The position numbers were made by a program, and so were the translations under genes. The notes beneath the pieces are model-generated. The model did no database searches. It was not told where the DNA came from and saw nothing but the letters and a program-made list of their open reading frames with translations. Shown piece after piece: positions 38,356-62,128 of a DNA stretch of 64,000 nucleotides (positions within the stretch are counted from its first letter, which is position 1; each line of letters begins with the position of its first letter). The DNA comes from a virus. The stretch lies in IMG/VR virus record IMGVR_UViG_3300033148_003376, positions 39,594 through 103,593 of that record; one strand, written 5' to 3'.

Positions 38356-40110
38356 TTACGTGATGGTCAACTTGGTAATGTACTGTGCCACAAGCGTTTC
38401 CGCCGCGCCCCAGGCTGCACCCGCTCGCATTGAGCCCAGAGGGTTAGGTGCCTCGGGGATCGTTCCCGTGATGAGGAGTGGCATAAAAGGGGCCCAGATC
38501 GCGGGCGCTTCGAAAATCGTGCCACCATTCCATACACACAGGATTTCAGCCAGCGGTAAGATTGCTGCTTCGAGTACACGAACCACGGTTACGCCATTCA
38601 ACGTTCCGTACACGTGTGCGCCGAGAGCTTTTCCATCGGCCAATTTCTCGAATCCAGGCATGACAGAGATCGTCGTGCAAGCGTCTTTTCCGGCGATGAG
38701 AAGAGAGATGATTCCACGGCCACAGTTTCCAGTGAGTACGCCTTCGGCTTGTGCGACCGCTTTTTTGAAAGACAGCCAGTGTTCGTAATCGGAAATGTTC
38801 GTCGGAGGAGCTTCCTGCCAGTTGGTATTTCCGATGGCACTAGCGTTCATGCTACGAATCAGGTCACCTGCGATCTCACGGTTGATCTCGGTCGTGAGTC
38901 GAGTTGCGAGTTCGTCTTCCGCAACCATGCCGAAACGCTTCATGAGAGCGAATTCTTGCATGAGTCCGATGCGTCCCTTGAGAGCGTACATGTGACTCAT
39001 GACAGTCTTGCTGTCCATGAAATCTTCGATGATCGGAAGATCGGTCGAGAGTTCGTAGTTGGCCTGACCAGATGCGTAGATCTTCTTGGCGTCGAGACCG
39101 ACGTCGTCGGTGACTTTCAGAATCACCGCACCGGTAACGTGGTTGATGGTACCGGAAAGTCCGATCCCGTAGAGTACACCCAATCCAGTCGCGGAGTCAG
39201 TTTCAACATCTTTGGCGACAGCGACACTCTCTGCAATGCCTTCGATCGTGATCTTGAGGGTCTGAGACCTGATGGGAAACATCGCTGCAGGAAGAGTGAA
39301 ACCGTATCCTTCGGTACCCGATGTGATGGTAGCGCCTGTGTCCAGGGGACCGAGCAGGTTCGATGCGTATCCCACTGGAGTCACGATACCGGTACGTGGG
39401 TTGACGACTACGTCACCAGCGGCTTGGGAACCTTTGGTTGTCGCTGAACGCACGTTCTGAAAGTAGACTGTTCCCTTCTCGTCGTCGATCATTTGTGTTC
39501 ACTACGAGTCGTTAATCCGTAGCCGGGACGAAACCCAGCTCATGCTTTCACATGAGATCAGACTATATCTTCATCCTTCTCTTTGCAGAGGTAGGATGTC
39601 CCCCATTTCCACCCACTTGGGTGTACGCTCGTCAAGAGCTAGTCGTTGAACCTTCTCAATTTTCATTGAGCTTGGCTGCTGATTGTCATATCTATTATTC
39701 ATAGACTTAGAGTTTCCAGCAATTAAAGGGATTATCACATGACGTCTCCGTCATGCGGCCCGTCGAAGTTCAGGCTGAATCGTCGCGATGATGGGAATCA
39801 CACTGGAACCCATCACGGCAGTAATCACATCCCATGCGACGTTCGGAATGAGACCGAGTGCATTCGTGTTGCTCTCGCTGATCATGCCTCGGTGTCTCAT
39901 CAGAGCCATGTATATTTCGTACTGGTCCAGTTGTTTTCCGAGTGCATAGTAGTCTTGTACTCCGGGGGAACCGCCACGGTGTTTCGCCAGGGGGGAACCT
40001 TCCAGAGCTTCCATCTGAGGTTTGTACGCTTTGAAGTAACGATCGATCGATTCCTCGATCTTGACCATTTCCTCGTCCAGATTGATGTTGCCTTGCATTG
40101 GAGCACCCAT
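38356..40110 (-). CDS. Major capsid protein (gp23-like), split by a group I intron
   Basis: Exon 1 is 40110-39772 (113 codons, MGAPMQGNINLDEE to IIATIQP) and exon 2 is 39489-38356 (377 codons, IDDEKGTVYFQNVRSATTKG onwards). Joining them gives ATIQP-IDDEKGTVYF, the normal T4-family capsid junction, in frame and 490 residues long (gp23 is 521). Read without splicing, exon 1 ends after six extra residues. The N-terminus holds Glu-rich sites such as IEES that a prohead protease could cut. It builds the capsid shell. Its 5' neighbour is the protease/scaffold gene. Confidence 0.92.
39490..39771 (-). ncRNA. Group I self-splicing intron in the capsid gene, 282 nt
   Basis: All core elements appear in order on the minus strand: P-like AATTGCTGGAAACTC (39725-39710), Q-like AATCAGCAGCCAAGC (39684-39668), R-like GTTCAACGACTAG (39651-39639) and S-like AAGATATAGTC (39571-39561). 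GACTA in R pairs exactly with TAGTC in S to make P7. The 5' exon ends in U (CAGCCU), which can pair with GGGCCG to form P1, and the last intron base is G. There is no room for an endonuclease ORF. Splicing restores a full capsid protein. Confidence 0.92.
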
Positions 40111-40183: not shown

Positions 40184-41065
40184 TTACTTGTTCATGACCG
40201 GCTTGACTCCGCTTCTGAGACCGCTCAGGTTTGCCATGATTCTCGCGGCTCTCGAACCTGAAGCTTTGTAGCTCTCGCGGATCGGCTCGGGTTTGGGATC
40301 TCCGTTGTCATCCCTTTTCTTGTACTGAACCAGATTCGCGTTTTTTTCTTTCAGGTCTTCGAGGAAAGTCCGTACCTCTTGCATTCCCTCTTCGACTGTT
40401 TTGGTTTCGCCTTTGCCCATCTTCGTATAGGTATTGAAAACGGTCGACTCGTCGAACCCGAGTTCTTCGCCGAGTTCCTTACAGTCTACTTTTGCCTTGT
40501 CGTCTTCCATGGACTCAGCCATGCTGTCTGCTTCGTCGATGCATGTTTTGACTTCTTCGACGGAACCGCTTTCGAGGTACCCATCGATCGTCTCTTTGGC
40601 TTTGCTGAGAGTTTCACGGACTTGCTCGGGAGTTGATTCCAGATCGTTCCAGCGCGACAAGAGAGCCATGCCTTCAGTGATGGATTTTTGGACTTCTTCG
40701 AGAGGACCAAGTTCCTGGAAGGCTTTCAGCTTTTCGAGGATCTCTTCACCCTTCCTGATAGACTCGCGGACCTCGTCGACTTCGCCGATTTCCCGGTAGG
40801 CTTTCAGATCGGTTTCGAGACGATCGAGTGCTTCGTTGATCTTACCGGGTTCACCGAGTTCCTGGTACTTTTTGAGAACGTCTCCGTCTTCGTTGAGAGT
40901 CTGAAGGTTCTCTTTCAGATTGTTGTTTTCGTCGGTGAGAACGGCATTCACGCCCTTGGTCTCTTCCAGTGTACCGAGAGCCCTTTCGAGGTCGAGCTTC
41001 AGCTTCGCGCTTTCGTTACTCAGGTTTTCGATCAGGGTGTCTTTGGGATCTACTGCTTGTGGCAT
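40184..41065 (-). CDS. Internal start giving free scaffold protein (293 aa)
   Basis: An in-frame ATG at 41065 (MPQAVDPKDTLIENL) is preceded by AGAGAGGA 7 nt upstream, a full ribosome site inside the protease reading frame. The product would be exactly the coiled-coil scaffold part without protease. Lambda C/Nu3 and other phages make scaffold this way, so the use of this start is likely. It has not been shown here. Confidence 0.65.
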   Translation of the reverse strand: MPQAVDPKDTLIENLSNESAKLKLDLERALGTLEETKGVNAVLTDENNNLKENLQTLNEDGDVLKKYQELGEPGKINEALDRLETDLKAYREIGEVDEVRESIRKGEEILEKLKAFQELGPLEEVQKSITEGMALLSRWNDLESTPEQVRETLSKAKETIDGYLESGSVEEVKTCIDEADSMAESMEDDKAKVDCKELGEELGFDESTVFNTYTKMGKGETKTVEEGMQEVRTFLEDLKEKNANLVQYKKRDDNGDPKPEPIRESYKASGSRAARIMANLSGLRSGVKPVMNK

Positions 41066-41839
41066 ATCGTCATCCTCTCTTGATGTTTGTGTGTTTTCGT
41101 TCGTGGGTATGGGAGCGTCGTTTTTACCTTTATGGTAATTGTTCACCACGACACTCGACACGTTGCCTTGGATGCTGACTGTCTTGTCTCCTTCGATATC
41201 TGTCGATGGGTCTTCTGTCGACTCACCGAAAACCTCATTGAGGGATTCAGCTATCTGTGGGTTGGCTTCCAAAAATCCAGGTTCCATTACAAAATCAAAC
41301 CCTTCGAGGAAGAAATTGTCAGGATCCACGCAGGGCATTCCGTCCTTTTTGCCCTTGTATTTGCCTTTGGCACGTGATGATGAAAACAATTCGCAACCTG
41401 CTCGTTTGACAGTGTTCAAAATCTGACCCGCGGGAGTGTTGAGAATCCACGCCTCGCCATATCCTTTGATCCCGTTGTGGTTTTCCTTGAGGTCTACCAC
41501 TACATGAGAGATCTTGCCGTCCAGAAGAGCCTGGTCGTTGATTTCCTGCTCGTGTCCGATCGTCCCGAACATCCTCTTGCCTTTGAGCTTCTCTAGGATA
41601 GTCTTCTTGACGAGTTGTTTGAGCCAAACAAGAGCCTCGTAGAAGCGTCCGTTCCTGGACTTACCGTCGAGAACGAAGAAAGGTCCCTTGATCTTGCCAA
41701 GAATGGCCGGTCCTTGACCACTCGTCTTCGCTCCAGATTCGGTCAAGATCTGTTCAGCATCGGCTTGAGACTGATCGTCCGCGTCCTCATAGACAAAGTC
41801 AGACGCAGGTGTGAAATCATCACGCAGGATTTCCATCAT
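40184..41839 (-). CDS. Prohead protease fused to scaffold
   Basis: The start at 41839 is chosen for GGAGG 6 nt upstream. 551 residues. Residues ~1-200 are a T4 gp21-like prohead protease: KSRNGRFYEALVWLKQ, GTIGHEQEIND (catalytic His) and CELFSSSRA (catalytic Ser). Residues ~255 to the end are a long, highly charged Glu/Lys coiled coil, the scaffold. A segment LTESGAK near residue 33 could be a self-cleavage site. In T4 the protease and core are separate genes, so this is a fusion. It would process the capsid and cut the inferred cargo tags. Confidence 0.85.
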   Translation of the reverse strand: MMEILRDDFTPASDFVYEDADDQSQADAEQILTESGAKTSGQGPAILGKIKGPFFVLDGKSRNGRFYEALVWLKQLVKKTILEKLKGKRMFGTIGHEQEINDQALLDGKISHVVVDLKENHNGIKGYGEAWILNTPAGQILNTVKRAGCELFSSSRAKGKYKGKKDGMPCVDPDNFFLEGFDFVMEPGFLEANPQIAESLNEVFGESTEDPSTDIEGDKTVSIQGNVSSVVVNNYHKGKNDAPIPTNENTQTSREDDDMPQAVDPKDTLIENLSNESAKLKLDLERALGTLEETKGVNAVLTDENNNLKENLQTLNEDGDVLKKYQELGEPGKINEALDRLETDLKAYREIGEVDEVRESIRKGEEILEKLKAFQELGPLEEVQKSITEGMALLSRWNDLESTPEQVRETLSKAKETIDGYLESGSVEEVKTCIDEADSMAESMEDDKAKVDCKELGEELGFDESTVFNTYTKMGKGETKTVEEGMQEVRTFLEDLKEKNANLVQYKKRDDNGDPKPEPIRESYKASGSRAARIMANLSGLRSGVKPVMNK

Positions 41840-42238
41840 AAGATGCCTCCGTTTTATGTTCAAAACTCATAGCTGTCATGAAGTGATGATCAAGAAATGA
41901 GATGTAGACGAACGTAGAAGGTTTTCGTAGGGAAAACGAATCTCGGGTTGGTTTACTATATAGCCTATTCAATAGTTAAAGCATTCTAAGGACTCCTTTA
42001 CAATTTTGTATTTTGATAAACATCGACACTTTGCCAGGTGTATTCATGAAGATATTGGGATGAGTTCAATTAGGAACGATGTTCGTTTAGATGGGTAGGG
42101 TCAGTCTTTTTTCTAAGACATTTCAACGTCTCTCGACCAGGAAGCAGTCATAATAGAAGTTTGAACGTTTGGTAGACTCAGATAGATTTCGTCCTTAGAC
42201 GTGTCTAAGTATCATCAAACTTCTTTTCCAAGACATGT
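41840..42238 (-). promoter_or_regulatory. 399-nt intergenic leader of the capsid operon
   Basis: The longest gene-free stretch of the window. It holds a structured element (42155-42224), further short inverted repeats and an AT-rich zone (TTGAATAGGCTATATAGT on the minus strand) that may contain a late promoter. No coding frame longer than ~15 codons with natural codon use is seen on either strand. An AAGGAG site followed by ATG-CTT-TAA near 41985-41980 is a possible two-codon leader ORF. The promoter assignment is weak. Confidence 0.5.
42155..42224 (-). ncRNA. Structured RNA-like element with 10-bp closing stem
   Basis: AGAAGTTTGA (42224-42215, minus) is a perfect complement of TCAAACTTCT (42164-42155). 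Inside lies a second hairpin CTTAGAC/GTCTAAG (42209-42194) with a 2-nt loop in the DNA. The multi-helix plan looks like an RNA structure rather than a simple terminator and is not a tRNA (no T-arm pairing). Function unknown. Confidence 0.45.
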
Positions 42239-44741: not shown

Positions 44742-45770
44742 TCAATTTTCAAACATCTCCAAGTCACCACCGTCAATCCTCGGACCAAGACTATCAGCCA
44801 CAATCTCCAGCTCGGGTGATGCAATTGGTATTGGTGGCGATGTCGGCGTTGCAGGTTTCTGCTTATCAGCCAGTTTCTGATTGAACTTTCGGATCTCCTT
44901 GACGATATGTGTCGAGTAGAACGTGATCGCTTCTGTCGCCAGCTTATTGAGCGATCTCACTTCACTCTTGTCCATACCAAAGAGTTTCACCATGTTGTCT
45001 ACCCACCAGGAAATCGGCATACCGAACATGGCCAACTGCCATCCAAACGGTGTCCATGGGTCAAGGTGGTCAGCAATCGCTTTCGTGATCAGAGCTGAGA
45101 TAGCCTGTGGTGTATTGAGAAGCTTTTCATCGTGCAACACACGGTTCGCTGCTTTGACATCGGCTGTCAGCATACCCTTGTTCGGTCCCCTCATGATCGG
45201 TCGGACAAACTTCTTGTCTTTCATATCCGCAAGAAGAATCTCGACATTCGGTTCCGTTGGGTTCTTCAGAAAATTCAAGACCTGGTCCTTGAGATCACTA
45301 GGAACGATGCCAGCTTGTTTTGTTACGAACTTTTCCTTCTCGGTAATTTCCTTCTCGGCTGCATTGAAGATCTGGTTCATCTGCTTTTTGTACTTCTCGT
45401 ACTGGAGCTTGAGGTACTCGCGGAACTTCTCGGTCCTGTCTTCGGGAGGTATCTTCTTGACCCTGGCAAATCCGACACCAAACATTTTCTCGGCGTCACG
45501 TTTCGAGAGAAACACCGATTTGACGAGTATTGGTTTGAGACTCCGTATGTTTTTCAAATCCCTATCAAGATCTTGGTATATCTTGACGACCACCTCGGGA
45601 ACACTCAACCCGGCATTGTCGAAGAACCCCATGGTAAGAAGAGCAGTAAACGGTTCGCGTTCAAACACATAGAGTCTACCGGTTTTAGTCTTGTAGATCT
45701 TTGACGGTTCCATAGCACCGCGCTTTTTTGCGGCTTCGATGAGGAGTAGTAGATTCTGTACGAGATTCAT
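44742..45770 (-). CDS. Large tagged cargo protein, 342 aa
   Basis: The tag MNLVQNLLLLIEAAKKRG is followed by beta/alpha regions (TGRLYVFEREPFTALLTMGF, VPEVVVKIYQDLDRDLK), a long charged coiled-coil stretch (~115-160), and a Trp-rich hydrophobic patch (HLDPWTPFGWQLAMFGMPIS). It ends with a Pro-rich linker. The Trp/Phe-rich patch could be a membrane or partner interface. AAGGAG precedes the ATG. No family recognised. Confidence 0.6.
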   Translation of the reverse strand: MNLVQNLLLLIEAAKKRGAMEPSKIYKTKTGRLYVFEREPFTALLTMGFFDNAGLSVPEVVVKIYQDLDRDLKNIRSLKPILVKSVFLSKRDAEKMFGVGFARVKKIPPEDRTEKFREYLKLQYEKYKKQMNQIFNAAEKEITEKEKFVTKQAGIVPSDLKDQVLNFLKNPTEPNVEILLADMKDKKFVRPIMRGPNKGMLTADVKAANRVLHDEKLLNTPQAISALITKAIADHLDPWTPFGWQLAMFGMPISWWVDNMVKLFGMDKSEVRSLNKLATEAITFYSTHIVKEIRKFNQKLADKQKPATPTSPPIPIASPELEIVADSLGPRIDGGDLEMFEN

Positions 45771-45780
45771 TTGATTCTCC

Positions 45781-46881
45781 TTACAACGCGTTCATCTTTT
45801 CCAGGAAATCACTTGCGACTGAGCCATACTCTACATGACTTTCCCAGATCGCATTCTTATTGTATTCCTTCAACTCGGCAGTCATGTAGTCTATCATCTT
45901 GGATTCTGATGAGATCTTTTTCGATTCTTTCATGAGTCTCACAAAGAACTCGATGGTCGCCAGTGATTCAGGAAGCGAAACAGCCGCAATCGGAGAGATC
46001 CGCTTGTTTTTACCGTAGAGACCGTTGATGTGCCAAGCAGCGACCTTGAGCATTGTCGTACGGAAGATCATGAGTCTGAGTTCATCCTTGATCGGAATGA
46101 CCCATGTGTCTTTACTGTGGTACTTCGCGCCGATTCGATCGTTGAGTCCGGTCTCGAAATCCCGTCGCTTGAACTTGCGTTTCTTCTTCCCGGCGAAGAT
46201 GTCGGTGAGTTTCTTGACCGGGAATAGCTTTGATGGAGTCGCGAGATCTCTCGTGTTCTTCTTCGAGTCCCAGGTACGTTTTCCCATCTTCTGTTTGAGT
46301 CCATCATGATAGAGATGGAGATCCACGTAGAATGGGAATGTTGCGCCTTCCTCGCCGCCACCGAGAGATGTTTCGAGTCTCACCTTGTATAGTGAAACAT
46401 CGATCTGAATATAAAACACCAGAGTTCGATCCGGTGTGAAAAATTCGTATTCAAGAAGTACGAGATCGCCATATAGACCAGTCGGTATTTTCTCGACCTC
46501 GCTATATTTGAGAGTCTTCCCTGAGTACTTCTCGAAATACTTCAGGTAGACATCCGGTTTGAACATGTCTTTGAGGAGCTTGAGAACGATCGTGGACTTT
46601 CGTCTCTTCTCTTCGGCGTCCGCTTCCCGTTCGGCTTGTCGACTGGATATTGATGTACCTTTACCGGTACCGTGTTTTTGTAGATACTCGTATGCCGCGT
46701 TGACCTTTTGTTGCATCTCGGTCGTACCACCTCGATCCGGATGGTGTTTGAGACTGGCCTTTCTGTAGACTACCTTGAGATCGTAGTCCTGGGTCGGATC
46801 GATCTCAAGAACTTCCATGGCCATCTCTGAGGTCATGTTGAATTCGAGAATAAGGTCGAGGAAGTCGGATGCGATAGTCAT
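45781..46881 (-). CDS. Tagged J-domain (DnaJ-like) protein
   Basis: 366 residues. The tag MTIASDFLDLILEFN is followed directly by a J-domain: AMEVLEIDPTQDYDLKVVYR, then KASLKHHPDRGG with the HPD motif at 47-49 and AYEYLQKHG. HPD is the site that activates Hsp70 ATPase. The remaining ~270 residues (VEKIPTGLYGDLVLLEYEFF, DVSLYKVRLETSLGGGEEG) are not a known J-protein module. If packaged, it could bias the host DnaK system at injection. Alternatively it aids capsid assembly. Confidence 0.78.
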   Translation of the reverse strand: MTIASDFLDLILEFNMTSEMAMEVLEIDPTQDYDLKVVYRKASLKHHPDRGGTTEMQQKVNAAYEYLQKHGTGKGTSISSRQAEREADAEEKRRKSTIVLKLLKDMFKPDVYLKYFEKYSGKTLKYSEVEKIPTGLYGDLVLLEYEFFTPDRTLVFYIQIDVSLYKVRLETSLGGGEEGATFPFYVDLHLYHDGLKQKMGKRTWDSKKNTRDLATPSKLFPVKKLTDIFAGKKKRKFKRRDFETGLNDRIGAKYHSKDTWVIPIKDELRLMIFRTTMLKVAAWHINGLYGKNKRISPIAAVSLPESLATIEFFVRLMKESKKISSESKMIDYMTAELKEYNKNAIWESHVEYGSVASDFLEKMNAL

Positions 46882-46888
46882 GATTTCC

Positions 46889-47092
46889 TCACTTGATTCC
46901 GAGTCTCGAATAGAGAAGCCTGATATCGTTCGCAGTGCTACTCAGGGCACCGATCGCACCAGCGAGTTCTCGCTTGACTCTCTTGTTGTCTGTCGCTTTC
47001 GATTCGGTATTCATCGCCTGGGTACCCGAATCGATCGCATCGAGAATATCTTTCTTGTCTTTGATGAGTGTCTTTTCATCTCCGAATGGCAT
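46889..47092 (-). CDS. Small helical protein, 67 aa
   Basis: 67 residues (MPFGDEKTLIKDKKDILDAI), predicted helical with a KKDILDAIDSG segment that partly recalls the tag. It lies 13 nt after a tagged gene and has AAAGGA before its ATG. Unknown. Confidence 0.5.
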   Translation of the reverse strand: MPFGDEKTLIKDKKDILDAIDSGTQAMNTESKATDNKRVKRELAGAIGALSSTANDIRLLYSRLGIK

Positions 47093-47105
47093 GATGATAT
47101 CCTTT

Positions 47106-47366
47106 CTACCGAATTTTGAGCTTCTTGTATTGTGACATGATGTAGCTTCTCTTTGACTTCAGTTCATTGATCGCGTAGTCGATCACCCTCGCGAGTTTTT
47201 GATCCGTTAACACGATCTCCGACCTCTCCATCTGGAGATTCGACACGGCTTTATCGATAGAGTCCATGACTGCGATTTCACTCTTTCTCAGAGCCTTGAC
47301 ATCGGAGTATTCCGGCTTCGCAATGGCTTCTTCGATGGTGTCGTTAAGATCTTGTACAAGGCTCAT
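47106..47366 (-). CDS. Tagged cargo protein, 86 aa
   Basis: Starts MSLVQDLNDTIEEAIAKPE, the tag with I-E-E then A. The rest is one long helical hairpin of Lys/Glu/Asp (SEIAVMDSIDKAVSNLQMER). No known family. Its ATG lies 72 nt after the upstream gene that ends in hairpin copy 2. Confidence 0.62.
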   Translation of the reverse strand: MSLVQDLNDTIEEAIAKPEYSDVKALRKSEIAVMDSIDKAVSNLQMERSEIVLTDQKLARVIDYAINELKSKRSYIMSQYKKLKIR

Positions 47367-47404
47367 GATTCACCTCTTGACTTCAGTTTCACTTTATGGC
47401 AAAA

Positions 47405-47437
47405 TTCGCGGAATTTCGTTTACGTAATCCCACGAAA
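47405..47437 (-). repeat. Recurrent hairpin, copy 2
   Basis: TTCGTGGGATT pairs with AATTCCGCGAA (two G-U pairs) around a 10-nt loop, beginning 2 nt after the stop codon of the 47439-47663 gene and followed by TTTT. Confidence 0.65.
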
Positions 47438-47438
47438 C

Positions 47439-47663
47439 TTACTCGAACTTCCAACCTGAGTGTTTACCATCAAGAATAAGTTCGATTTGCTCCTTAGCTG
47501 CTTTCTCGCTGGCGGCATTCGTACTGATTTGATAAACGTTCGTCGGTCCTCCTTCATCATCGTTCAGGTCAATTTTGACATTGAAACTAAACTTGAGAAG
47601 CTTGGCCTTAGACTCGTTACATGCTTTCTTGATGTCATCCAGAAATTTCTTCGCAATTCCCAT
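47439..47663 (-). CDS. Tagged cargo protein, 74 aa
   Basis: ATG at 47663 with the tag MGIAKKFLDDIKKACNESK (C-N-E then S). It is followed by a small mixed domain (FSFNVKIDLNDDEGG, EKAAKEQIELILDGKH). An AAGGAG site precedes the ATG, better placed than the upstream ATG at 47684. Unknown family. Confidence 0.62.
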   Translation of the reverse strand: MGIAKKFLDDIKKACNESKAKLLKFSFNVKIDLNDDEGGPTNVYQISTNAASEKAAKEQIELILDGKHSGWKFE

Positions 47664-47674
47664 GACTATCTCCT

Positions 47675-48652
47675 TTACGAACACATATTCAAAAGACGAT
47701 CTGCTTTCGACTCCGCTGGCTTGCCTTCGAAGTTCTCGACGAGTCTTGGCATCTTCCTACCAAGCTTATTGAACTTGGACTCCGGTGCAATGGTCAGATC
47801 CGGTGACGCGACCGACGACAGTCTTTTCAAAGCGTCTTCCAGTTTGTGATCGAGTAGATAATGGGAGATGATCAACTCTCGCAGATGTGCAAATGAGAAC
47901 CCGTCGGTGCGCTCAGAGAGTGCCTTGATCTGATCCGGCTTCTCGATTCCCTTGAGCTTGTGCTTGAGGTAGATCAGACGACCTTCTATCGGAGGATGTC
48001 CCACGTGAATGGTGTAATCGAATCTACCGGGACTCTTGACCCGTTCCGGGATCCGATTCAGATAGTTCGTGGTCGCGATGTAACAGACTCCGTCTACTGA
48101 CATGTTCCCATCGAGAAGCTGAAGGATCTCGTGTTCTCCATATTGCACCAGCTTGTCGAGATCTTCCATGATGCAAAGAAGCTTACGATCCGGTTCGACT
48201 TCCTTGAACATGCGAATCGCGTTGATTGTGATCCCGAGAGACTGGGTATAGAAAACGACGTCGTCCTTGGCGAGTGTGTCCTCGACGAGAATCTTGATCG
48301 CCGACGATTTACCGGATCGATGAGGTCCTTCGAGGAGCATTCCACGGTTATGCAGATACCCGATGTCGTGATACTTCTTTCCCTTCTTCCAGAACTTTTC
48401 GATCTGTGTGAGGATTTCGACATGTTCTTTCATGGGAAACCGGAGAAGCTCATCGCTCTTCAGATCCATTTCCTGGAAATAGACTCCCGCTTGATTACGA
48501 GATGGAACGTAGACACCGGGTTTCAATCTCTTGATGATCTCGATGTCCTCGGGAGCAGGTTTGCTCATACTCCCCTGTTGAATGTATTGTACGAGTTCAC
48601 GCTTTTTCTCTACAGCTTCGCACATACTGAGGAGTCTATCCGCTTTACCCAT
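47675..48652 (-). CDS. Tagged AAA+ ATPase with a second C-terminal tag copy
   Basis: 325 residues from the ATG at 48652 (AAAGGA 8 nt upstream). The N-terminus is MGKADRLLSMCEAVEKK. A central AAA domain has Walker A GPHRSGKSS (109-117), Walker B LLCIMEDLD (158-166), sensor 1 ATTN (193-196) and SPGRFD with a likely arginine finger (R210). The C-terminus is SKADRLLNMCS, almost a repeat of the N-terminal helix. The domain style is that of classical AAA unfoldases such as FtsH or BCS1. A packaging or remodelling role is inferred. Confidence 0.85.
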   Translation of the reverse strand: MGKADRLLSMCEAVEKKRELVQYIQQGSMSKPAPEDIEIIKRLKPGVYVPSRNQAGVYFQEMDLKSDELLRFPMKEHVEILTQIEKFWKKGKKYHDIGYLHNRGMLLEGPHRSGKSSAIKILVEDTLAKDDVVFYTQSLGITINAIRMFKEVEPDRKLLCIMEDLDKLVQYGEHEILQLLDGNMSVDGVCYIATTNYLNRIPERVKSPGRFDYTIHVGHPPIEGRLIYLKHKLKGIEKPDQIKALSERTDGFSFAHLRELIISHYLLDHKLEDALKRLSSVASPDLTIAPESKFNKLGRKMPRLVENFEGKPAESKADRLLNMCS

Positions 48653-49577: not shown

Positions 49578-49868
49578 TTACTTGTTCTCAAGTCGAAAGA
49601 TGAGATCCCTGCTTTGGATCGTCCCGACCGAAATGATATCCATGGACTGAAGATTTTTCAAAGCAGTCGCATCTACTCTGAATGCTTTCTTACCTACGAT
49701 CTCCAGCATGAGTGTCGGTCCACTCTTCAAGACACGGTAGTATTGTTTCTTACCCCAGAAGTTTTGAAGGTCTCTGATGTTCTTGTCGTTGATACCTTCG
49801 ATGTCTTCTGCTTTGACCATGTCGTTGGATTCTTGAATTGAATTCAAAAGATCTTTCGCGATACCCAT
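49578..49868 (-). CDS. Tagged cargo protein, 96 aa
   Basis: A clear tag MGIAKDLLNSIQESNDMVK (I-Q-E then S), followed by a compact alpha/beta domain (LQNFWGKKQYYRVLKSGP, MLEIVGKKAFRVDATALK). Unknown family. Its ATG is 11 nt after the previous stop. Confidence 0.65.
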   Translation of the reverse strand: MGIAKDLLNSIQESNDMVKAEDIEGINDKNIRDLQNFWGKKQYYRVLKSGPTLMLEIVGKKAFRVDATALKNLQSMDIISVGTIQSRDLIFRLENK

Positions 49869-49879
49869 GACAGTCTCCC

Positions 49880-50161
49880 TTACTGTGATTTTTCTGGATA
49901 ATGTCTATCCACGAAAAGCCATGCCGCTTTGACATTCTTCCCGGTGAGACTCTCGATTCTCACTAACTCCTGCCATGCCTTGATCTTGTCGTCTTTATAT
50001 TCGAGAGAGAATTTCAAAGACGAATTCCATCTTTCTCTGGTCTGACTCGGAAGACGGCCGAGTAGGTCCATGAGATCGTGTTTGTCTTGTATGGACAGAA
50101 CCGGTGTTTTCACTTTCTTTGCTTCTCCGATGGCATCGAGTAAGTCTTTCATGATACTCAT
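49880..50161 (-). CDS. Tagged cargo protein, 93 aa
   Basis: ATG at 50161 with AAAGGA upstream; tag MSIMKDLLDAIGEAKKVK (I-G-E then A). The body has a helical segment (KHDLMDLLGRLPSQTRERW) and a C-terminal helix. It follows the portal gene directly. Unknown. Confidence 0.63.
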   Translation of the reverse strand: MSIMKDLLDAIGEAKKVKTPVLSIQDKHDLMDLLGRLPSQTRERWNSSLKFSLEYKDDKIKAWQELVRIESLTGKNVKAAWLFVDRHYPEKSQ

Positions 50162-50172: not shown

Positions 50173-51777
50173 TCACGACTCCATTTCGTTTGTTTCGTCT
50201 TCTACCTTGATCACTCCAGTCAAGCCGATCATGTTGAGCTGTTGACCGAGGAATTTGGCGAATGCTTCCATGTCGACTTTCTCGGCAAGGGGAGATTCTT
50301 CGTCTTCGGTGAGGTTGTTCAGGAAGTCATTGATATTACTCAACATATTCACGGACGTGTCTAAAAACTCGAGTTTGTCGATATTGTCTATCTCGATGAG
50401 CTTGTTCCTGAAGTCAACGACAATATCATCATCTTTCGCGCCTATGCCTTTATTCGCCAAATGAATCTGACAAACACGTCTGACACCATCCCGAATAGCT
50501 CTTTGGATATTTTTTAGACGACGAAGATACCTGGCATAGCGTCTGAGGATCTCGCCTTTATCCATGCCTTCCGAAAGGAAGATGACCTCATAGAGTACAC
50601 CGATAGAAGAGCAACACACCTTTCTGAGATCTTCTATAGACGCGAGTAAATCGTCGGGTTCGTCGGATTTGTAATCCATCTTGTTCACGGTACCCTTATC
50701 ACCAAAGATAGGAATACACTTGAACTTGCCAGCGGTACCCAGAACGTTTTCGAGTGTCATCTGACCTTGGCTGACATCGATAGCGATCTTCTCGTTGATG
50801 ATGCCTTCGAGCCGACGACAGACTCGTGTGGCTTTGTCGAGATCATACCCAGGAGGAACCTGGATACTGAGGATCGTTCCGCTAGTCATCTTCTGAAGCT
50901 TCGTCGCTGGGACAAGCTGTTCCATCAATTCCAGCTCTTTGAACTTATTGATCACTGGATATATGACACCTTTACCCACACGAACGAATCTCGGGATATT
51001 AGCGAAGCATGTCTCAGGGTCTTTGACACCATAATGCTTCTGGATATCGATTCTGATCTTCTTACCCGGGAGTGTGAATATCGCGTAGTCTGAACTATCT
51101 TTCAACTTGAGTGTGTACCCGTGTCGACCAGCCGCAAGTTCGATGTACCCGTCGATCTTCCTACCTTTCGAAACCGCGAGTACGGTACCCTGTTCAACAC
51201 AGTCGATAAGTTCTTCGAGACCACCTTTATTCGAGACCTTCGGCTTGAGGATGTATTCGCCGTAGCGGAGCACGTCCGGTAGGATATCGAGAATAAGCGT
51301 ATCGAATCCAATCCGCTCGTCGAGGATCTTCAGCTCTTTGTTTATATGTTTGTTTTCTGAAGATACCGACAGGACTTCCCCGCTTGAGACTTCCGGAGTA
51401 AGCGCGTCTTCCACCATCTGATCGATGATGACATCGACGAGGTAGAAATCAGAGATCCTGTCGATCTCCTTGATGATGTTTTTTCGGAGACGAGATACTC
51501 TGGTGTACGCGGCAACCATTGACGTGGACGCGAACTTGTTCTTCATGAGACTGCGAATGTCCGCGAGACTTTCAGCGAGAGATCCATAGTCGCTGACATT
51601 GAGAGTCGTTTTCAGGATATCCAGTTGTGATTCGTTGAGACTACTCAAAGACTCGATGACCGAGTTGACCGGACTAGAGAGATCCTCGTCTCCAACGACA
51701 TCTGTTACCGCTGCAGTCATAGCACGAGTTCTCGTATCAACTGGTGTCTTGGATTTCTTTTTACGTATAAATGGCAT
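50173..51777 (-). CDS. Portal protein (gp20-like)
   Basis: 534 residues, the expected size. Portal features include LRYGEYILKPKV, the PGKKIRIDIQKHYG clip region, FVRVGKGVIYPVINKFKELE, and KGEILRRYARYLRRLKNIQ followed by an acidic C-terminus. It forms the ring at the unique vertex that admits DNA and binds terminase. Start ATG at 51777. Confidence 0.88.
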   Translation of the reverse strand: MPFIRKKKSKTPVDTRTRAMTAAVTDVVGDEDLSSPVNSVIESLSSLNESQLDILKTTLNVSDYGSLAESLADIRSLMKNKFASTSMVAAYTRVSRLRKNIIKEIDRISDFYLVDVIIDQMVEDALTPEVSSGEVLSVSSENKHINKELKILDERIGFDTLILDILPDVLRYGEYILKPKVSNKGGLEELIDCVEQGTVLAVSKGRKIDGYIELAAGRHGYTLKLKDSSDYAIFTLPGKKIRIDIQKHYGVKDPETCFANIPRFVRVGKGVIYPVINKFKELELMEQLVPATKLQKMTSGTILSIQVPPGYDLDKATRVCRRLEGIINEKIAIDVSQGQMTLENVLGTAGKFKCIPIFGDKGTVNKMDYKSDEPDDLLASIEDLRKVCCSSIGVLYEVIFLSEGMDKGEILRRYARYLRRLKNIQRAIRDGVRRVCQIHLANKGIGAKDDDIVVDFRNKLIEIDNIDKLEFLDTSVNMLSNINDFLNNLTEDEESPLAEKVDMEAFAKFLGQQLNMIGLTGVIKVEDETNEMES

Positions 51778-55869: not shown

Positions 55870-57381
55870 TTAGAATTTATACCCGAATAGTCGTCGTACT
55901 TCTTCACCAACTGAATAACCTTGACCATCACTGCCCGCGAGAGCATCGAGCCAACTCGCCGAATGAAGCTTCAAAAGTGCTTGGCTCGACGAGTCCGTGC
56001 GATCGTTCGTCGCCGCATTGGGAAACGACACAAGCTCATCAATATAATCTTTGACCCATGGCGCATCGATAGTAGTAGGATCCGGTACCCAGATATTCCC
56101 TGCTTCAAATTGAGGAGAAACAGCACGTAAACGCGCTACCTTGGAATCTTGTCCTGGATTAAACCCAGTGACACCAGGAACGTGTTCACACATCGTCTCG
56201 ATAACTGCTGGACCATTGGCTTTATCCTCGACGGCGTGTTCTATTGACATCGGCCATTTCCCAGCCATGTCTTTCATCGCCGAAAGAGTCCCGATAAATC
56301 CCGTACGCTCGTGATACATATCGAGTAGATATCTCCGAGGACCAATCGTCCCCCAGACAGTCCCACAGACAAACGAGTTGTTATCACCGGCTTTGAAGTT
56401 ACAGTCCCACGATGTCATGATCACATCGAACTGTTCGATCGGTGGCATCTCTCGATATTTTCGGAACCATGTCCGCTCAATGATGTTTCCGGATTCAGGA
56501 GAAGGTCTTTGCTGATACAGTGCGTTCCAGACCTGGGTACCGAGAGATGCTTTGATCTTCGCGAGTCGTTCGAGGTTATATTTCCATTCCCAAAGAGGAT
56601 CTCCGATTTTACGTGGGTCGTCTGGGTTGCTATCATCCTCTTTTACCGCTGGAAAATTGACGAGTACCCATTGGTCTGCGTCTTCGTCTTCAGCCATGAA
56701 TTCAAGGAGAGAACCAATAAGGTCCGCTTCATGCCAACGTGTAGCGGTAATGAGAATTCCGGCGTCTTTTTCCGCTCTCGTATAGAATGTACTGCGATAC
56801 CAATCGAGGATAGTTTTTCTGGTCGTCTTCGATAACGCTTCTTGCATGTTTTTGAGAAAGTCGTCGATTAGAAGATAGTGTCCTCCAAGTCCTGTGATCC
56901 CGGCTCCAACTCCAGCCGAACGATATGCTCCTTCATAATTGACGATTTCGAAGAGATCTGAATTCCGAAGATATGATCCATGTGCTGTCGTACGGACGTT
57001 CTTAGACCAGAGTGTTGTATTTGGAAAGACCTGTTGATACTCGTTCGAATCGATGATCCGCTGAACATCGCGGTTCATTCTTGATGCAAGGTCGGATCCG
57101 TATGAACATGAGATGATCGACGTGTTGGGATTTCTGCCGAAAATATATGCTGGTAATCTCCTAGAAACTAGCTCGGATTTTCCATGGCGAGGTGGCATCG
57201 TAACGATGAGTCTTTTGATCTCACCTCTGATGAACTTGTCAAGGACTTCACAAAGAACGGCATGGTGCCAATTTACCTGATAGTCCTTCTTCGTGTACGT
57301 CGTGAAATCGAGCAGACTCCTCCGCGCGAATTCTGCGTCAATCGAATTTACAGTGACTGGGACTTGGATAGGTGCGTTCAC
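55870..57381 (-). CDS. terL: Terminase large subunit (packaging ATPase-nuclease)
   Basis: 503 residues, GTG start. The ATPase domain has Walker A MPPRHGKS (62-69), Walker B YLLIDD (169-174) and the coupling motif ATRWHEADL. The C-terminal RNase-H-like nuclease has acidic sites in TSWDCNFKAGD, IEHAVEDKANG and NDRTDSSSQ. It translocates DNA into the prohead and cuts concatemers. It is next to a pseudo-paralog and between cargo genes; no classic small terminase is recognised in the window. Confidence 0.96.
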   Translation of the reverse strand: MNAPIQVPVTVNSIDAEFARRSLLDFTTYTKKDYQVNWHHAVLCEVLDKFIRGEIKRLIVTMPPRHGKSELVSRRLPAYIFGRNPNTSIISCSYGSDLASRMNRDVQRIIDSNEYQQVFPNTTLWSKNVRTTAHGSYLRNSDLFEIVNYEGAYRSAGVGAGITGLGGHYLLIDDFLKNMQEALSKTTRKTILDWYRSTFYTRAEKDAGILITATRWHEADLIGSLLEFMAEDEDADQWVLVNFPAVKEDDSNPDDPRKIGDPLWEWKYNLERLAKIKASLGTQVWNALYQQRPSPESGNIIERTWFRKYREMPPIEQFDVIMTSWDCNFKAGDNNSFVCGTVWGTIGPRRYLLDMYHERTGFIGTLSAMKDMAGKWPMSIEHAVEDKANGPAVIETMCEHVPGVTGFNPGQDSKVARLRAVSPQFEAGNIWVPDPTTIDAPWVKDYIDELVSFPNAATNDRTDSSSQALLKLHSASWLDALAGSDGQGYSVGEEVRRLFGYKF

Positions 57382-57388: not shown

Positions 57389-57571
57389 TCATTTACCCTG
57401 TCTTGGAGATGTGGAGAGCGATGTCCGTCGACCGTCTACCATGTATTCGTGTAGAAGACATGTGTACCACGGAGCTTGTACATACGGAGATGTAACGACT
57501 AGATATTGATCGCTACTGTGTTTGTTCAGTAGAACACGGTTATACCATTTCTCTATTGTAGGAGTGTTCAT
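57389..57571 (-). CDS. Small protein upstream of terL, 60 aa
   Basis: The ATG at 57571 overlaps the preceding stop (ATGA), and the frame ends 7 nt before the TerL GTG. Codon use looks natural: MNTPTIEKWYNRVLL, then YVQAPWYTCLLHEYMV. It has no tag. Translational coupling supports reality. It is too short for a typical small terminase but could be a truncated partner. Confidence 0.5.
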   Translation of the reverse strand: MNTPTIEKWYNRVLLNKHSSDQYLVVTSPYVQAPWYTCLLHEYMVDGRRTSLSTSPRQGK

Positions 57572-58242
57572 ACGTCGCCTTCTCCTCCGACTGTTTGAAT
57601 CTCGAACGAATACACTCCGTCTTTTTCTTTGACGCTGGTGTTCAAAACATATCTTGATCCTTTCGGCGCAAGACCATGGGTACTGTATTTATTGATCTTG
57701 TACTTTCTTAGGATCTTTCTGATCTTATCCATAGAGATTGTTCTTGAAGCATCTTCTACAGCAACTCCATCCGTGCCACTGATCATGATAGATCCGCCGA
57801 AATCTCCATCGGGTTTCGTAATCTCTGTCACTTTCAGGTTGAAGCTCTTTGCTACCTTGTTGACCATCGACGTAATAGTCTTCCAAAGACCTCCTTGTAT
57901 CTTCGTAATCTGTACAGTGATAATCTCGGGACTTCCACCCGAAAGACTGCCGATCACGAAGTCTTTCGGAACAATCGCTTTGAGTTGGTCTCTGATCTCT
58001 TCAGATCGACGTACGATTTCATCTCTGGACATCTCACCGGTGTCCTTGTAGTAATCAAACATGATGACAAGGGTATCTTTTCCGTGTTGACGAACCTTGT
58101 AACCAGATTGTATCTTGCGTTTCGTCCATATCGACGTTTTCAATCCAAGCTTTTTGAGATAAGGCAAAATGGCTGTAGGCTCAACAGCGAGCATACCCAT
58201 CGCTTCTTCAATGACGTCAAGAAGATCTCGTACGATTCCCAT
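57568..58242 (-). CDS. Tagged cargo protein, 224 aa
   Basis: Tag MGIVRDLLDVIEEAMGMLA (I-E-E then A). It contains alpha/beta segments (LGLKTSIWTKRKIQSGYKV, KDTLVIMFDYYKDTGEMS) and a C-terminal region (RKYKINKYSTHGLAPKGSRY, SFEIQTVGG) that resembles the end of the 60805-61161 cargo. The two are probably paralogs with one enlarged. No enzymatic motif. Confidence 0.62.
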   Translation of the reverse strand: MGIVRDLLDVIEEAMGMLAVEPTAILPYLKKLGLKTSIWTKRKIQSGYKVRQHGKDTLVIMFDYYKDTGEMSRDEIVRRSEEIRDQLKAIVPKDFVIGSLSGGSPEIITVQITKIQGGLWKTITSMVNKVAKSFNLKVTEITKPDGDFGGSIMISGTDGVAVEDASRTISMDKIRKILRKYKINKYSTHGLAPKGSRYVLNTSVKEKDGVYSFEIQTVGGEGDV

Positions 58243-58254
58243 TTTCTTCTCCTT

Positions 58255-58743
58255 TTACGCGGCTCTTGTGCCACCATGTGGAATTCTCTTTGCAAGACCT
58301 ATGATCAGCTCGTCTGCCTGACCCATGATCCTCTTTTGATCTTTCTCCGGGAAGCTATCTATGTTCTGCAGTTTGAATCTCATCTGGTCAATAGAGTGGA
58401 TATCCTTGGGGAACATCTTCTTGAGATTCTTGAGTGCTACGAGTTGTTGATTGACTCGACCACCTTGTGCCTTCTCGATGAGACTGAGAAGATCCTCGAC
58501 GAGGGATTCTTTCGGCGCGGGTCCGTATGTCTTTCCATATCGAGCACGGATCTCTTTTCTCTTCTCTATCGAGAGACTGTACCAGATGCTACCGATAGTC
58601 TGTCGGATCCGTTCGTCGTCGTAGGTGGGACTGGATTTCTTGATATCCTTTACCATCTTGTCCCACCATTCAGATGGTGCCTTGAGGCTAGGCGCAGTCT
58701 CCGCTTTTTCAACGAGACTGAGAAAGGATTGTACTAGGTTCAT
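58255..58743 (-). CDS. Tandem cargo with a second internal tag, 162 aa
   Basis: N-terminal tag MNLVQSFLSLVEKAETAP is followed by ~60 residues. At 80-92 a near-copy of the tag appears (SLVEDLLSLIEKA), then another helical domain (QLVALKNLKKMFPKDIHSID) similar to the 42934-43236 protein. This looks like a fusion of two cargo genes that kept both tags. If both sites are cut, it would release two peptides. Overlaps the next gene by 4 nt. Confidence 0.65.
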   Translation of the reverse strand: MNLVQSFLSLVEKAETAPSLKAPSEWWDKMVKDIKKSSPTYDDERIRQTIGSIWYSLSIEKRKEIRARYGKTYGPAPKESLVEDLLSLIEKAQGGRVNQQLVALKNLKKMFPKDIHSIDQMRFKLQNIDSFPEKDQKRIMGQADELIIGLAKRIPHGGTRAA

Positions 58744-58988
58744 GATACTTTCCCCAGTGAAAACTTGACTTCGTGTACATTGAATTCCAGACCATCAGAC
58801 GTACAATTCAAATTGGTAACATGGTTGGTCTTGACGACCACGTTAGTATCAGGGGCTTTGAAAGTAATCTTGTCCTGTGTGATTACATCGACTCTATAGA
58901 GACCACTTACAGATGTTCCAAGTGTAGTCATGGAAAGCCTGACTTTCTTTCCGAACAGGCTTATGAGATGGGTTTGTAAATTCATCAT
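58740..58988 (-). CDS. Small beta protein, tandem paralog A
   Basis: 82 residues (MMNLQTHLISLFGKKVRLS). It aligns closely with the next gene: SGLYRVDVITQDKITFKAPD, then NHVTNLNCTSDGLEFNVHEV. No tag. It arose by local duplication. The small all-beta pattern may be a sheet or clamp domain; unknown role. Confidence 0.58.
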   Translation of the reverse strand: MMNLQTHLISLFGKKVRLSMTTLGTSVSGLYRVDVITQDKITFKAPDTNVVVKTNHVTNLNCTSDGLEFNVHEVKFSLGKVS

Positions 58989-59221
58989 CTCAGATGAAAC
59001 TCTACGTTATTGACTGTGAAGGTGAATCCGTCAGTGGTGTACTTCAAACCCTTGATGTACTTCGTCTCGATAACAATCCTCGTACACGACTGAATGAGAA
59101 TGATTTTCTCGTCAGAAACATCGTCGATCTTATAGAGACCCGACACGGCAAGTCCGTGTGTCAACATGGTGACTTTGAGTCTATCAGGAATGGATGTCCT
59201 GAGATAATCTTGAAGTGTCAA
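58985..59221 (-). CDS. Small beta protein, tandem paralog B
   Basis: 78 residues from a TTG at 59221 (GAGGA 8 nt upstream), which makes the N-terminus (TLQDYLRTSIPDRLKV) match paralog A. The shared core is SGLYKIDDVSDEKIILIQ and then GLKYTTDGFTFTVNNVEF. Overlaps paralog A by 4 nt. Role unknown. Confidence 0.55.
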   Translation of the reverse strand: MTLQDYLRTSIPDRLKVTMLTHGLAVSGLYKIDDVSDEKIILIQSCTRIVIETKYIKGLKYTTDGFTFTVNNVEFHLR

Positions 59222-59235
59222 AAGATGTATCCTCT

Positions 59236-59562
59236 TCAACCTTGTGCGAGTTCCTTCGGTAGGATCGGAAGCTTTCGAATATGTTTCTCGATCGCAGCCT
59301 TGGTACTGCTCACGGTACCACCGGCTCTGAACGACGTCGCGATGAGGTATCCCTTCGGTAGCTTGTCGTCGTCATGGAAGACATCGACGACTCCGTATAC
59401 GTCCTTCTCCGGGTCGTTCGGTATGTAGACAAGACTCGCCTTTCCGCCTTTGACGCTCAGAAGATGATGAGCTTGTTTCGCAAGCGTCGTCGCAGTCTCC
59501 TCGACCCACTTCATTACCTTGCTCTCATTGATAACTTTGAGAAAATCTCTTGCCAGCGTCAT
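59236..59562 (-). CDS. Tagged cargo protein, 108 aa
   Basis: Tag MTLARDFLKVINESKVMKW (I-N-E then S). The body includes helix and beta segments (HHLLSVKGGKASLVYIPND, YGVVDVFHDDDKLPKGY) and ends in a helical segment. Unknown family. Confidence 0.62.
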   Translation of the reverse strand: MTLARDFLKVINESKVMKWVEETATTLAKQAHHLLSVKGGKASLVYIPNDPEKDVYGVVDVFHDDDKLPKGYLIATSFRAGGTVSSTKAAIEKHIRKLPILPKELAQG

Positions 59563-59566
59563 AATC

Positions 59567-59953
59567 TCACTCCCATGGTTCTTTGGACATTTTACCTTCT
59601 ATCGCTTTGATGAGTGCATCTCTTGTGTACGGTTTGTAAATAATGTAATCAAATAGTTTCTTGTTTTCAACAATGCCACCAGTCGACGCGACAATCCTTG
59701 GACATTTATTCAGTGTCTTTCTGAGCCAACGAGTGAAATCCTCGCCGTTTCCACCGTCTCCGTTCATCTTTATGTCACAAAGAATGACATTGATGTCTAT
59801 CGTCTTAATGATCTCCGCTGCAGACTTGAGCGTGGTAGCAGTAAGGATATAGTAAGACTGATCAGAGAGAAATCGTTTGATGACGTCGAAGACCCATGGT
59901 TCGTCTTCAATGATGAGGATCGTTTTCGTTTTCAGTCTCCTCTTGACAAACAA
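59567..59953 (-). CDS. Stand-alone response-regulator receiver domain
   Basis: 128 residues; start uncertain (a TTG at 59953, with AGAGGAG just after it). It has all key receiver residues: the acidic pair in IIEDEPW, phospho-acceptor Asp60 in LCDIKMNGDGG, Ser/Thr in ASTGG and Lys107 in YKPYT. It has no output domain and no tag. In bacteria such proteins work by binding kinases or partners. In a phage it could intercept host two-component signalling, or be recruited as a structural scaffold. Confidence 0.75.
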   Translation of the reverse strand: MFVKRRLKTKTILIIEDEPWVFDVIKRFLSDQSYYILTATTLKSAAEIIKTIDINVILCDIKMNGDGGNGEDFTRWLRKTLNKCPRIVASTGGIVENKKLFDYIIYKPYTRDALIKAIEGKMSKEPWE

Positions 59954-59971
59954 AGTGAAATTTGTTATACT
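59943..59971 (+). promoter_or_regulatory. Sigma70-type promoter for the plus-strand gene
   Basis: TTGACA (59943-59948), 17-nt spacer and TATACT (59966-59971), very close to consensus, 17 nt before the ATG at 59989. It overlaps the start of the divergent receiver gene, so firing here could interfere with that gene. It is the only strong consensus promoter seen. Confidence 0.85.
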
Positions 59972-59988
59972 AAAGATGGAGGTTAATT

Positions 59989-60237
59989 ATGACAAAAAAA
60001 CATCCATACGGATATGACCACACAACAGGCGAAGGTCAGAAACGTCTCATGTACGAATCAATTGGGTTCGACATTACCAAAAAACAAGAGACGCCATCCT
60101 ATTACGAAGATGGTGAAACAGGGTCTGATCCAATCCTCGACGACAATGGAAATCCAACAGGTAAAATCAAGATGTATCCTACCGGACGAATCGTCGACCG
60201 AACAACTCGTCTGAATGCGTATCAACCGAAGAAATAG
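59989..60237 (+). CDS. Plus-strand small protein, 82 aa
   Basis: ATG at 59989 with GGAGGT 5 nt upstream and a consensus promoter. Polar and Tyr/Thr/Gly-rich (HPYGYDHTTGEGQKRL, TGRIVDRTTRLNAY), no tag and no transmembrane region. Overlaps the 3' end of the minus-strand 60222-60455 gene by 16 nt. A strong host-type promoter suggests early expression. Function unknown. Confidence 0.75.
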   Translation: MTKKHPYGYDHTTGEGQKRLMYESIGFDITKKQETPSYYEDGETGSDPILDDNGNPTGKIKMYPTGRIVDRTTRLNAYQPKK

Positions 60238-60455
60238 TCATACCATTCTTCGTCCGTCGTACGAATGAGCATTCCAATCGTCTCACCTGGAAAGTCACTC
60301 GTGTGACCACCGGCATCTCCCTTTTCAAGAGCTTTGATAGCCTTGGGAATATTCTTCTGAACTCTCTTGAGCCATTCGATCGCCGCTTTGGTCATCTTGG
60401 CTTCATCGCCTTGACCCTCGTTACATGCTTTCAAGAAATCCTTCGCTATGGTCAT
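60222..60455 (-). CDS. Tagged cargo protein, 77 aa
   Basis: ATG at 60455 with AAAGGG upstream; tag MTIAKDFLKACNEGQGDE (C-N-E then G). Rest helical then Gly-rich (KAIKALEKGDAGGHTSDF). Its end converges with the plus-strand gene. Unknown. Confidence 0.6.
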   Translation of the reverse strand: MTIAKDFLKACNEGQGDEAKMTKAAIEWLKRVQKNIPKAIKALEKGDAGGHTSDFPGETIGMLIRTTDEEWYDYFFG

Positions 60456-60459
60456 TTGA

Positions 60460-60801
60460 TCATTCCCTTTCATCGATACAGTTGATTCGTCCCTTGTCGA
60501 TGGCTTCCTCGGTCTCTCCCTCGTCGAGGTCTTTCATCTCGACGGTAAGGTTTCTCTTATCATGCCAGCAATCACCACAGTACACGATCTTACCGTTCGT
60601 GATGTGAAAATGGCAGACTTGTCGAGCGGTCTTCGGTCCCATAGTGACCTTGATCGATGGCTTCACTGTGGGACAGTCAAAGTCTCCGTTGAAATCCCAG
60701 TTCGGTTCCGCTGGTTTGACCTGGAACGCGTGTATCGTCTTACATCCTGGACACCAGAAGTTGTACTGTGTAGATTCACCCCAGCGTTTGACTTTTGACA
60801 T
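60460..60801 (-). CDS. DUF6527-like zinc-binding protein
   Basis: 113 residues with CPGC, PTVKPSIKVT and later CHFHITNGKIVYCGDCWHD, matching the layout of phage proteins grouped as DUF6527 (CPGC at the front, P-S-x-x-x-x middle, C-H then CGDC). Probable zinc binding. Function unknown. No tag. It overlaps nothing but sits 4 nt from its neighbours. Confidence 0.6.
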   Translation of the reverse strand: MSKVKRWGESTQYNFWCPGCKTIHAFQVKPAEPNWDFNGDFDCPTVKPSIKVTMGPKTARQVCHFHITNGKIVYCGDCWHDKRNLTVEMKDLDEGETEEAIDKGRINCIDERE

Positions 60802-60804
60802 AGG

Positions 60805-61161
60805 TCACTGATCCGATGTTTGAACTTTGAAAAAGTACGACCCTTCATCTTCGATAACCTCTGACGCGTAAACAAAGAGCTTTCCGCTAGGTGCCTTTTC
60901 AAGAGTATCGAAGACTTTGATTCCGTGTTTCTTCCCTACTGAAACAAGTTCTTTCAATATCGAAGATCGTGCCTTTTTCGTTTTCGATTCGTCGTCGCCT
61001 TGTATCTCAATACCACCCTCATCTCCATCCGGGTCAAACAGATCATTCAGCTTGAATCCCTTGGCATTCTTCTTGACGACAGCCTCGACATCTTTCCAGA
61101 TCTTTCCAACCGCTTCATTGGCCTTCTCGACGGTCTCCAACACGTCCTTCACGATTCCCAT
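60805..61161 (-). CDS. Tagged cargo protein, 118 aa
   Basis: ATG at 61161; tag MGIVKDVLETVEKANEAVG (A-N-E then A). The body (NDLFDPDGDEGGIEIQGDD and KLFVYASEVIEDEGSYFFKV) resembles the C-terminal part of the 57568-58242 cargo. Paralogs. Unknown role. Confidence 0.62.
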   Translation of the reverse strand: MGIVKDVLETVEKANEAVGKIWKDVEAVVKKNAKGFKLNDLFDPDGDEGGIEIQGDDESKTKKARSSILKELVSVGKKHGIKVFDTLEKAPSGKLFVYASEVIEDEGSYFFKVQTSDQ

Positions 61162-61209
61162 GACAACTCTCCTCATGAATTTGATTCAACCATTTCATAA
61201 ACCGTTGCT

Positions 61210-61401: not shown

Positions 61402-61405
61402 GACT

Positions 61406-61759: not shown

Positions 61760-61761
61760 GA

Positions 61762-62091: not shown

Positions 62092-62128
62092 GACTCTTCT
62101 CCTTGACATGTGGAAATATTCGTGATAA

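Follow-up and report, generated by a model that had tools for sequence, protein, structure and literature searches.

A J-domain protein and an AAA ATPase encoded ~0.8 kb apart in a viral genome fragment share an N-terminal peptide whose anatomy, by sequence comparison, resembles the capsid-targeting sequence (CTS) of phage T4. By sequence, the J protein is a member of the Rki family, the AAA protein is YjoB/Bcs1-like, both genes are syntenic with head genes, and homologs of both proteins carry tags in other phages. We propose that the J protein is a late-made, head-packaged and injected Rki-type co-chaperone acting on host Hsp70, and that the AAA protein is likewise packaged; we give this combined model a probability of about 0.6. 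The sequence analysed (the window, 64,000 nucleotides) comprises bases 39594-103593 of a 103.6-kb viral contig, and positions are those of the window unless stated otherwise. The two proteins and their tags are encoded as follows:

45781..46881, minus strand: Rki-family J-domain protein, 366 aa (phrog_13942, E 1.4e-48)
46843..46881, minus strand: CTS-like tag of the J protein, residues 1-13 (MTIASDFLDLILE, followed by F; predicted cleavage after ILE)
47675..48652, minus strand: YjoB/Bcs1-like AAA ATPase, 325 aa (Pfam AAA, E 2.7e-6, over the cut-off)
47675..47710, minus strand: C-terminal near-copy of the AAA tag core plus stop codon (SKADRLLNMCS; predicted helical)
48617..48652, minus strand: CTS-like tag of the AAA protein (MGKADRLLSMCE, followed by A; score 6.4)

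Nearly the whole window is a single minus-strand array, and the outer contig holds mostly plus-strand genes. Judged by the gene content of the window, which includes a tail sheath gene (phrog_23 match), the source is a large T4-type myovirus of bacteria. The J and AAA genes lie between the protease and portal genes on the same strand, and the gap separating them holds three small genes, at least two of which are tagged:

38356..39492, minus strand: major capsid protein, T4-type (weak match, phrog_138, E 9e-4)
40184..41863, minus strand: prohead protease-scaffold fusion (phrog_207, E 4.7e-20; six [LI]xE[AGS] sites)
44742..45770, minus strand: 342-aa tagged protein (MNLVQNLLLLIEAA), directly downstream of the J gene (tag matrix)
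46889..47092, minus strand: 67-aa gene between J and AAA, tag not clear (KDKKDILDAIDSG)
47106..47366, minus strand: 86-aa tagged protein (MSLVQDLNDTIEEA; tag matrix)
47439..47663, minus strand: 74-aa tagged protein (MGIAKKFLDDIKKACNES; tag matrix)
49578..50161, minus strand: two more tagged genes, in the interval from AAA to portal (tag matrix)
50173..51777, minus strand: portal protein, T4 gp20-like (weak match, Portal_T4, E 5.8e-5, just under the cut-off)
55870..57381, minus strand: terminase large subunit (phrog_38, E 6.7e-102)
57568..63856, minus strand: upstream stretch of the tagged array, ~10 tagged genes (tag matrix)

From its place in the minus-strand head array, the J gene is expected to be expressed late. 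Few T4 late promoters (TATAAATA) occur in the window, and none was found upstream of the J or AAA genes. A Pfam search with ten other proteins of the tagged array returned no match. Outside the window, a plus-strand gene at approximately 28441-28785 of the contig (window -11152..-10808) bears a late-type tag (MGIANDVMESVKSAQKINES).

About 31 proteins of the late minus-strand array, with unrelated bodies, begin with the common peptide M-[GTS]-[IL]-[VA]-K-D-[LF]-L-x-x-I-x-E-[AS]. We built a 14-position matrix on 18 clear cases, scored each gene leave-one-out, and used internal windows of the same proteins as the null (99%, 5.5; 99.9%, 8.6). The 99% level was exceeded by 28 of the 96 minus-strand genes as compared to 1 of the 65 plus-strand genes, and the 99.9% level by 20 minus-strand genes and no plus-strand gene. 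The sequence-only reading had placed a tag on both genes, and this holds: the J protein scores 12.6, above the 99.9% level, and the AAA protein, which was outside the training set, scores 6.4, above the 99% but below the 99.9% level. This only moderately strong AAA tag in the window was counted against our model. It represents a second subtype, which reads M-[GS]-[KR]-A-x-x-[VIL]-L together with the genes at 43901, 52162, 52811 and 53575, and M-[GSTN]-[KR]-A-x-x-[LI]-L when two other phage loci (L105 and L113) are considered.

With 16 residues removed, the bodies of the 31 tagged proteins gave a single BLAST cross-hit in 465 pairs. Identity within the tag is 0.74 at codon position 2 and 0.42 at position 3, as compared to 0.31 upstream; the agreement at second positions together with the low upstream identity places selection on the tag peptide, and these values rule out a DNA-level origin of the tag as a promoter or repeat. 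A cleavage-type motif, [ILVMC]xE, occurs within residues 7-22 of 25 of the 31 tagged proteins and of 18 of the 130 others; at the tag end it reads ILE before F in the J protein and MCE before A in the AAA protein. The protease-scaffold fusion itself has 1.07 [LI]xE[AGS] sites per 100 aa against a background of 0.29, an enrichment of ~3.6-fold. The T4 CTS brings proteins, foreign ones included, into the core of the prohead, and the internal proteins lose short N-terminal peptides through gp21 cleavage (PMC9958956, PMC3012670). As likeness to the CTS is weak evidence alone, we examined homologs of both proteins. Scans of viral contigs with the single proteins found no close relatives of J or AAA, and alignments were needed.

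The J protein comprises a J domain (residues ~16-70), a C-terminal domain (~80-330) and a C-terminal helix (326-365). The Pfam DnaJ match (E 4e-6, 27.3 bits) falls just under the curated cut-off of 27.8; nevertheless, the J domain is intact, as had been read from the sequence, with HPD at residues 47-49 and H47, P48, D49, R50, G51 and G52 invariant in 12 homologs. An earlier suggestion was to search the region outside the J domain; the phrog_13942 match spans residues 11-340 and so includes a homologous Rki-family C-terminal domain, and the protein aligns over its full length with KP15, CC2 and other homologs. Its predicted model (pLDDT 81) consists of a J domain and a separate alpha/beta C-terminal domain, and by fold it matches an Aeromonas phage 65.2 protein (E 4e-22); for the C-terminal domain, no PDB relative was found by sequence or by fold. 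In the predicted models of both J and AAA, the tag is a low-confidence helix.

The AAA gene starts at the ATG at 48652, with AAAGGA ahead. The description of its product as a classical AAA ATPase stands as far as Walker A (GPHRSGKS), Walker B (LLCIMED), a sensor (TTN) and SPGRFD are concerned, but needs amending at two points: firstly, Walker B reads ED rather than DE, with E163 and D164 invariant in 20 homologs; secondly, a serine takes the place of arginine three residues before the second arginine finger. The C-terminal SKADRLLNMCS matches the N-terminal GKADRLLSMCE (residues 2-12) at 8 of 11 positions, and at the DNA level this near-copy is not a simple repeat. In the predicted model (pLDDT 83), an AAA core follows a small beta domain at the N-terminus, and the best PDB fold matches of this model, ranks 1-14, are to YjoB and Bcs1 (E ~3e-14); YjoB was also found by sequence profile (2.9e-41). 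Only this short predicted domain precedes the AAA core, whereas Bcs1 proper has a membrane anchor and a middle domain, and the protein is classed here as Bcs1-like rather than as Bcs1.

Rki, the product of RB43 ORF057w, functions as a J-domain protein (Perrody et al. 2012, PMC3486835). It is expressed early, stabilises sigma32, and both binds E. coli DnaK and stimulates the DnaK ATPase; it is toxic through DnaK and is required for full RB43 growth (PMC3486835). We located RB43 rki at locus L034, where the protein starts MINEKMTH and the first codons are identical to the published primers (PMC3486835). Elsewhere in the family, tag-like starts are found: MKSFKEYISEA in Nitratidesulfovibrio phage SRB7757, MKSTKQFLMEIA in Vibrio phage vB_VmeM-32, MNRYESYLREV in Variovorax phage V45v66, MSKMFNELFES in Aeromonas phage CC2, and MRFKKYLMIINE, MKFKNYLVEA, MYSFKEFLLE, MKKFKDYLLES, MKSFHDWLMEA and MKSFKEWLEEA in other IMG/VR and GenBank phages. 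Some of these are, in sequence, nearly identical to the T4 tag, as T4 IPII and IPIII both start MKTYQEFIAEA. Tagged J homologs occur in isolates, namely vB_VmeM-32, SRB7757 and Emmerichvirinae phages such as CC2. In nearly every tagged homolog, helix I of the J domain follows closely on the acidic tag end, and a cleaved product would thus have the J domain at its N-terminus.

Neighbouring genes in these phages can carry the same start. At L029 the J gene lies within a series of ~9 genes starting MKTFNQYIAE, MKTFSQYITEA, MKTFKQYLDEA, MKTFNQFIAEAQ and similar, and at L024 it lies among genes starting MKFKQYLIE. We compared the first 10 residues of J or AAA with those of the neighbours, taking the mean of the top three (300 shuffles, p floor 0.003); an earlier, stricter statistic with 13 residues and a fixed threshold was significant at fewer loci. 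For J, p was 0.003 at L029 and L024, 0.013 at L052 and ~0.06 at L026 and L035, and the test was not significant for V45v66, SRB7757, L053, L038, L045 and Emmerichvirinae.

The untagged proteins of RB16 (close to RB43), KP15, POP12 and Mm5 form one clade with 100/100 support, and the Phynn J-family protein and Slopekvirus Rki are also untagged. All other sampled J branches are tag-like at the start, with one unclear (L045); the tree is unrooted, is compatible with either gain or loss of the tag, and does not decide between them. That RB43, Slopekvirus and relatives have an untagged Rki was counted against our model; with an untagged form that is early in RB43, the Rki family does not need packaging.

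Some neighbours of tagged J genes are themselves of interest. In SRB7757, a RelA/SpoT-like gene with a tag-like start (MIEFKQYVLMEN) adjoins the J gene, and a similar sequence neighbours J in V45v66 (loci L004 10860-11534 and L003 2716-4023); it possibly encodes a second packaged effector. At L029 (16054-19365), a tagged cytidylyltransferase-like protein and a tagged DUF5824 protein suggest other injected enzymes. A 'DnaJ-like protein' detected by MS in virions of Erwinia jumbo phages (PMC7760394) was rejected as a direct precedent; the sole PF00226 match in that genome is weak and falls in a 157-aa protein without HPD, and no Rki match was found in it.

The AAA family in phages comprises 351 loci, and the nearest relatives of the window protein carry local tags. 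The member at L105 has MTRAKDILNSLNE, that at L109 starts MSFREFIKEN, and that at L113 starts MSRAQKICEG amid eight genes such as MNKAQKLLNVLDEE; genes for a protease (phrog_207) and a capsid protein (phrog_138) lie near the L113 gene. In the neighbour test p was 0.003 at L105, L106 and L113, 0.01 at L109 and 0.04 at L103, and the test was not significant at L107, L117 and L151. In another phage group (L103, L106), a different tag of the IExAIDxM type is shared by the AAA and adjoining genes. About 1 kb from the tagged AAA at L109, positions 11820-12347 encode a short J-domain protein of another type. Many distant phages, huge phages among them, have an untagged AAA, and at L151 the AAA gene lies near a DNA polymerase gene. 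The untagged distant forms, together with fusions into larger proteins, suggest that the AAA protein can serve in other settings and that delivery in the head is confined to part of the family. One such fusion, gp14 of Xanthomonas phage phiXF1 (L005 4830-8846), has many hydrophobic-x-E-[ASG] sites and may be a polyprotein cut in the prohead.

These distributions bear on whether J and AAA form a working pair, like DnaJ/DnaK/ClpB, that refolds phage or host proteins at entry. The two genes are 0.8 kb apart with a common tag, and AAA rings and J proteins are known to co-operate in ClpB/Hsp70 systems, but the AAA protein here is YjoB/Bcs1-like and not ClpB-like. Moreover, among the mostly partial records searched, no full-length Rki-family protein was found in AAA-bearing phages and this AAA was not found in Rki-bearing phages, and the J-domain protein at L109 is of the different, short type. 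We regard such a pair as very improbable.

The common N-terminus might instead be a conserved translation leader or interaction helix on two cytosolic host-takeover factors. RB43 Rki does work from the cytosol (PMC3486835), and the many untagged distant AAA homologs fit this proposal as well. We nonetheless consider it improbable: selection acted on the tag peptide and not on the DNA, the tags fall almost wholly in the late array beside a gp21-type protease and a scaffold carrying the same motif, and homolog tags are nearly identical to a proven T4 CTS. Since unrelated phages put their own tags on both families, some being near-copies of the T4 tag, head targeting of both proteins is supported by other phages and not only by the window. 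The sequence-only reading of the two proteins as head cargo is partly supported, and packaging, cleavage and injection are inferred by analogy with established T4 biology.

In the model that we favour, J and AAA would be made late in infection, and the CTS-like N-terminal peptide would draw them into the prohead core. There the gp21-type prohead protease would cleave them behind the tag, and both would go into the head with the DNA and later be injected. The injected J protein would engage host DnaK through its HPD J domain and divert it through its C-terminal domain, so that it would do at entry what RB43 does by an early, untagged Rki. The AAA protein, as a remodelling ring resembling YjoB and Bcs1, would be delivered in the same way. 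That J could redirect host Hsp70 had been suggested before; membership of the Rki family, given the biochemistry of RB43 Rki (PMC3486835), strengthens the suggestion, and from this membership we infer that J acts on DnaK in the present host.

A tag that recruits both proteins to the prohead core could also serve late assembly chaperones, which would fold or remodel capsid or core proteins there and then be degraded or expelled. The genes do lie among portal, protease and capsid genes, T4 capsid assembly needs the chaperones gp31/GroEL (PMC3012670), and gp21 degrades several T4 core proteins. In T4, however, the proteins that bear the short CTS (IPII, IPIII) are retained and packaged and are not those of the degraded core; furthermore, DnaK would be unexpected inside a prohead, and the related Rki acts early on the host. 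We judge this alternative unlikely, though less so than a cytosolic role for both proteins.

A packaged Hsp70 co-chaperone, if real, would mean that a phage takes control of host proteostasis as soon as it enters. It would also give a reason for two forms of rki, one tagged and late, the other untagged and early. On a simple reading, packaging would provide Rki activity immediately and early transcription, as the alternative, would provide the same activity shortly afterwards. More tentatively, at a little under even chances, the arrangement may be widespread in T4-type phages: tagged Rki would reprogram the host heat-shock and proteostasis system before expression of any phage gene, packaging would be common and the early RB43 form the exception, and a protein-remodelling AAA ring would be injected in the same manner in this and other T4-type phages. 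The tag also offers a simple way to list the proteins that uncultured T4-type phages probably inject, with ~31 in this one genome fragment. To our knowledge, a packaged J-domain co-chaperone has not been reported, and text searches returned none, which is weak evidence as most subscription papers lay outside the search. The impression that a packaged J-domain is unfamiliar therefore applies to the packaging label on an Rki-family J protein, which is the new element; CTS-bearing internal proteins and phage J-domain proteins of the Rki family were already known.

Compared with T4 IPI, IPII, IPIII and Alt, the window shows three likenesses: firstly, a short N-terminal peptide on unrelated proteins; secondly, T4-type head genes with a gp21-type protease in the same genome; thirdly, a tag that ends in a hydrophobic-x-E cleavage motif. 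By contrast, the window tag is ~14 residues long with a sequence of its own (M-G-I-V-K-D-L-L type). Most internal head proteins of T4-type phages are orphans or inhibitors of restriction; the window differs in having ~31 carriers, two of them with chaperone-type domains. Like RB43 Rki, the window protein has an HPD J domain and a homologous C-terminal domain, but the RB43 form is untagged, early and 237 aa long, whereas the window form has 366 aa, a CTS-like start and a place in the late array. Bacillus subtilis YjoB and Bcs1 are the best fold matches of the predicted phage AAA structure, which differs from them in its short N-terminal domain, its tag and the serine at one arginine-finger position. 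Finally, the AAA domain of phiXF1 gp14 is 34% identical to the window AAA, but there it forms the C-terminal part of a 1338-aa protein.
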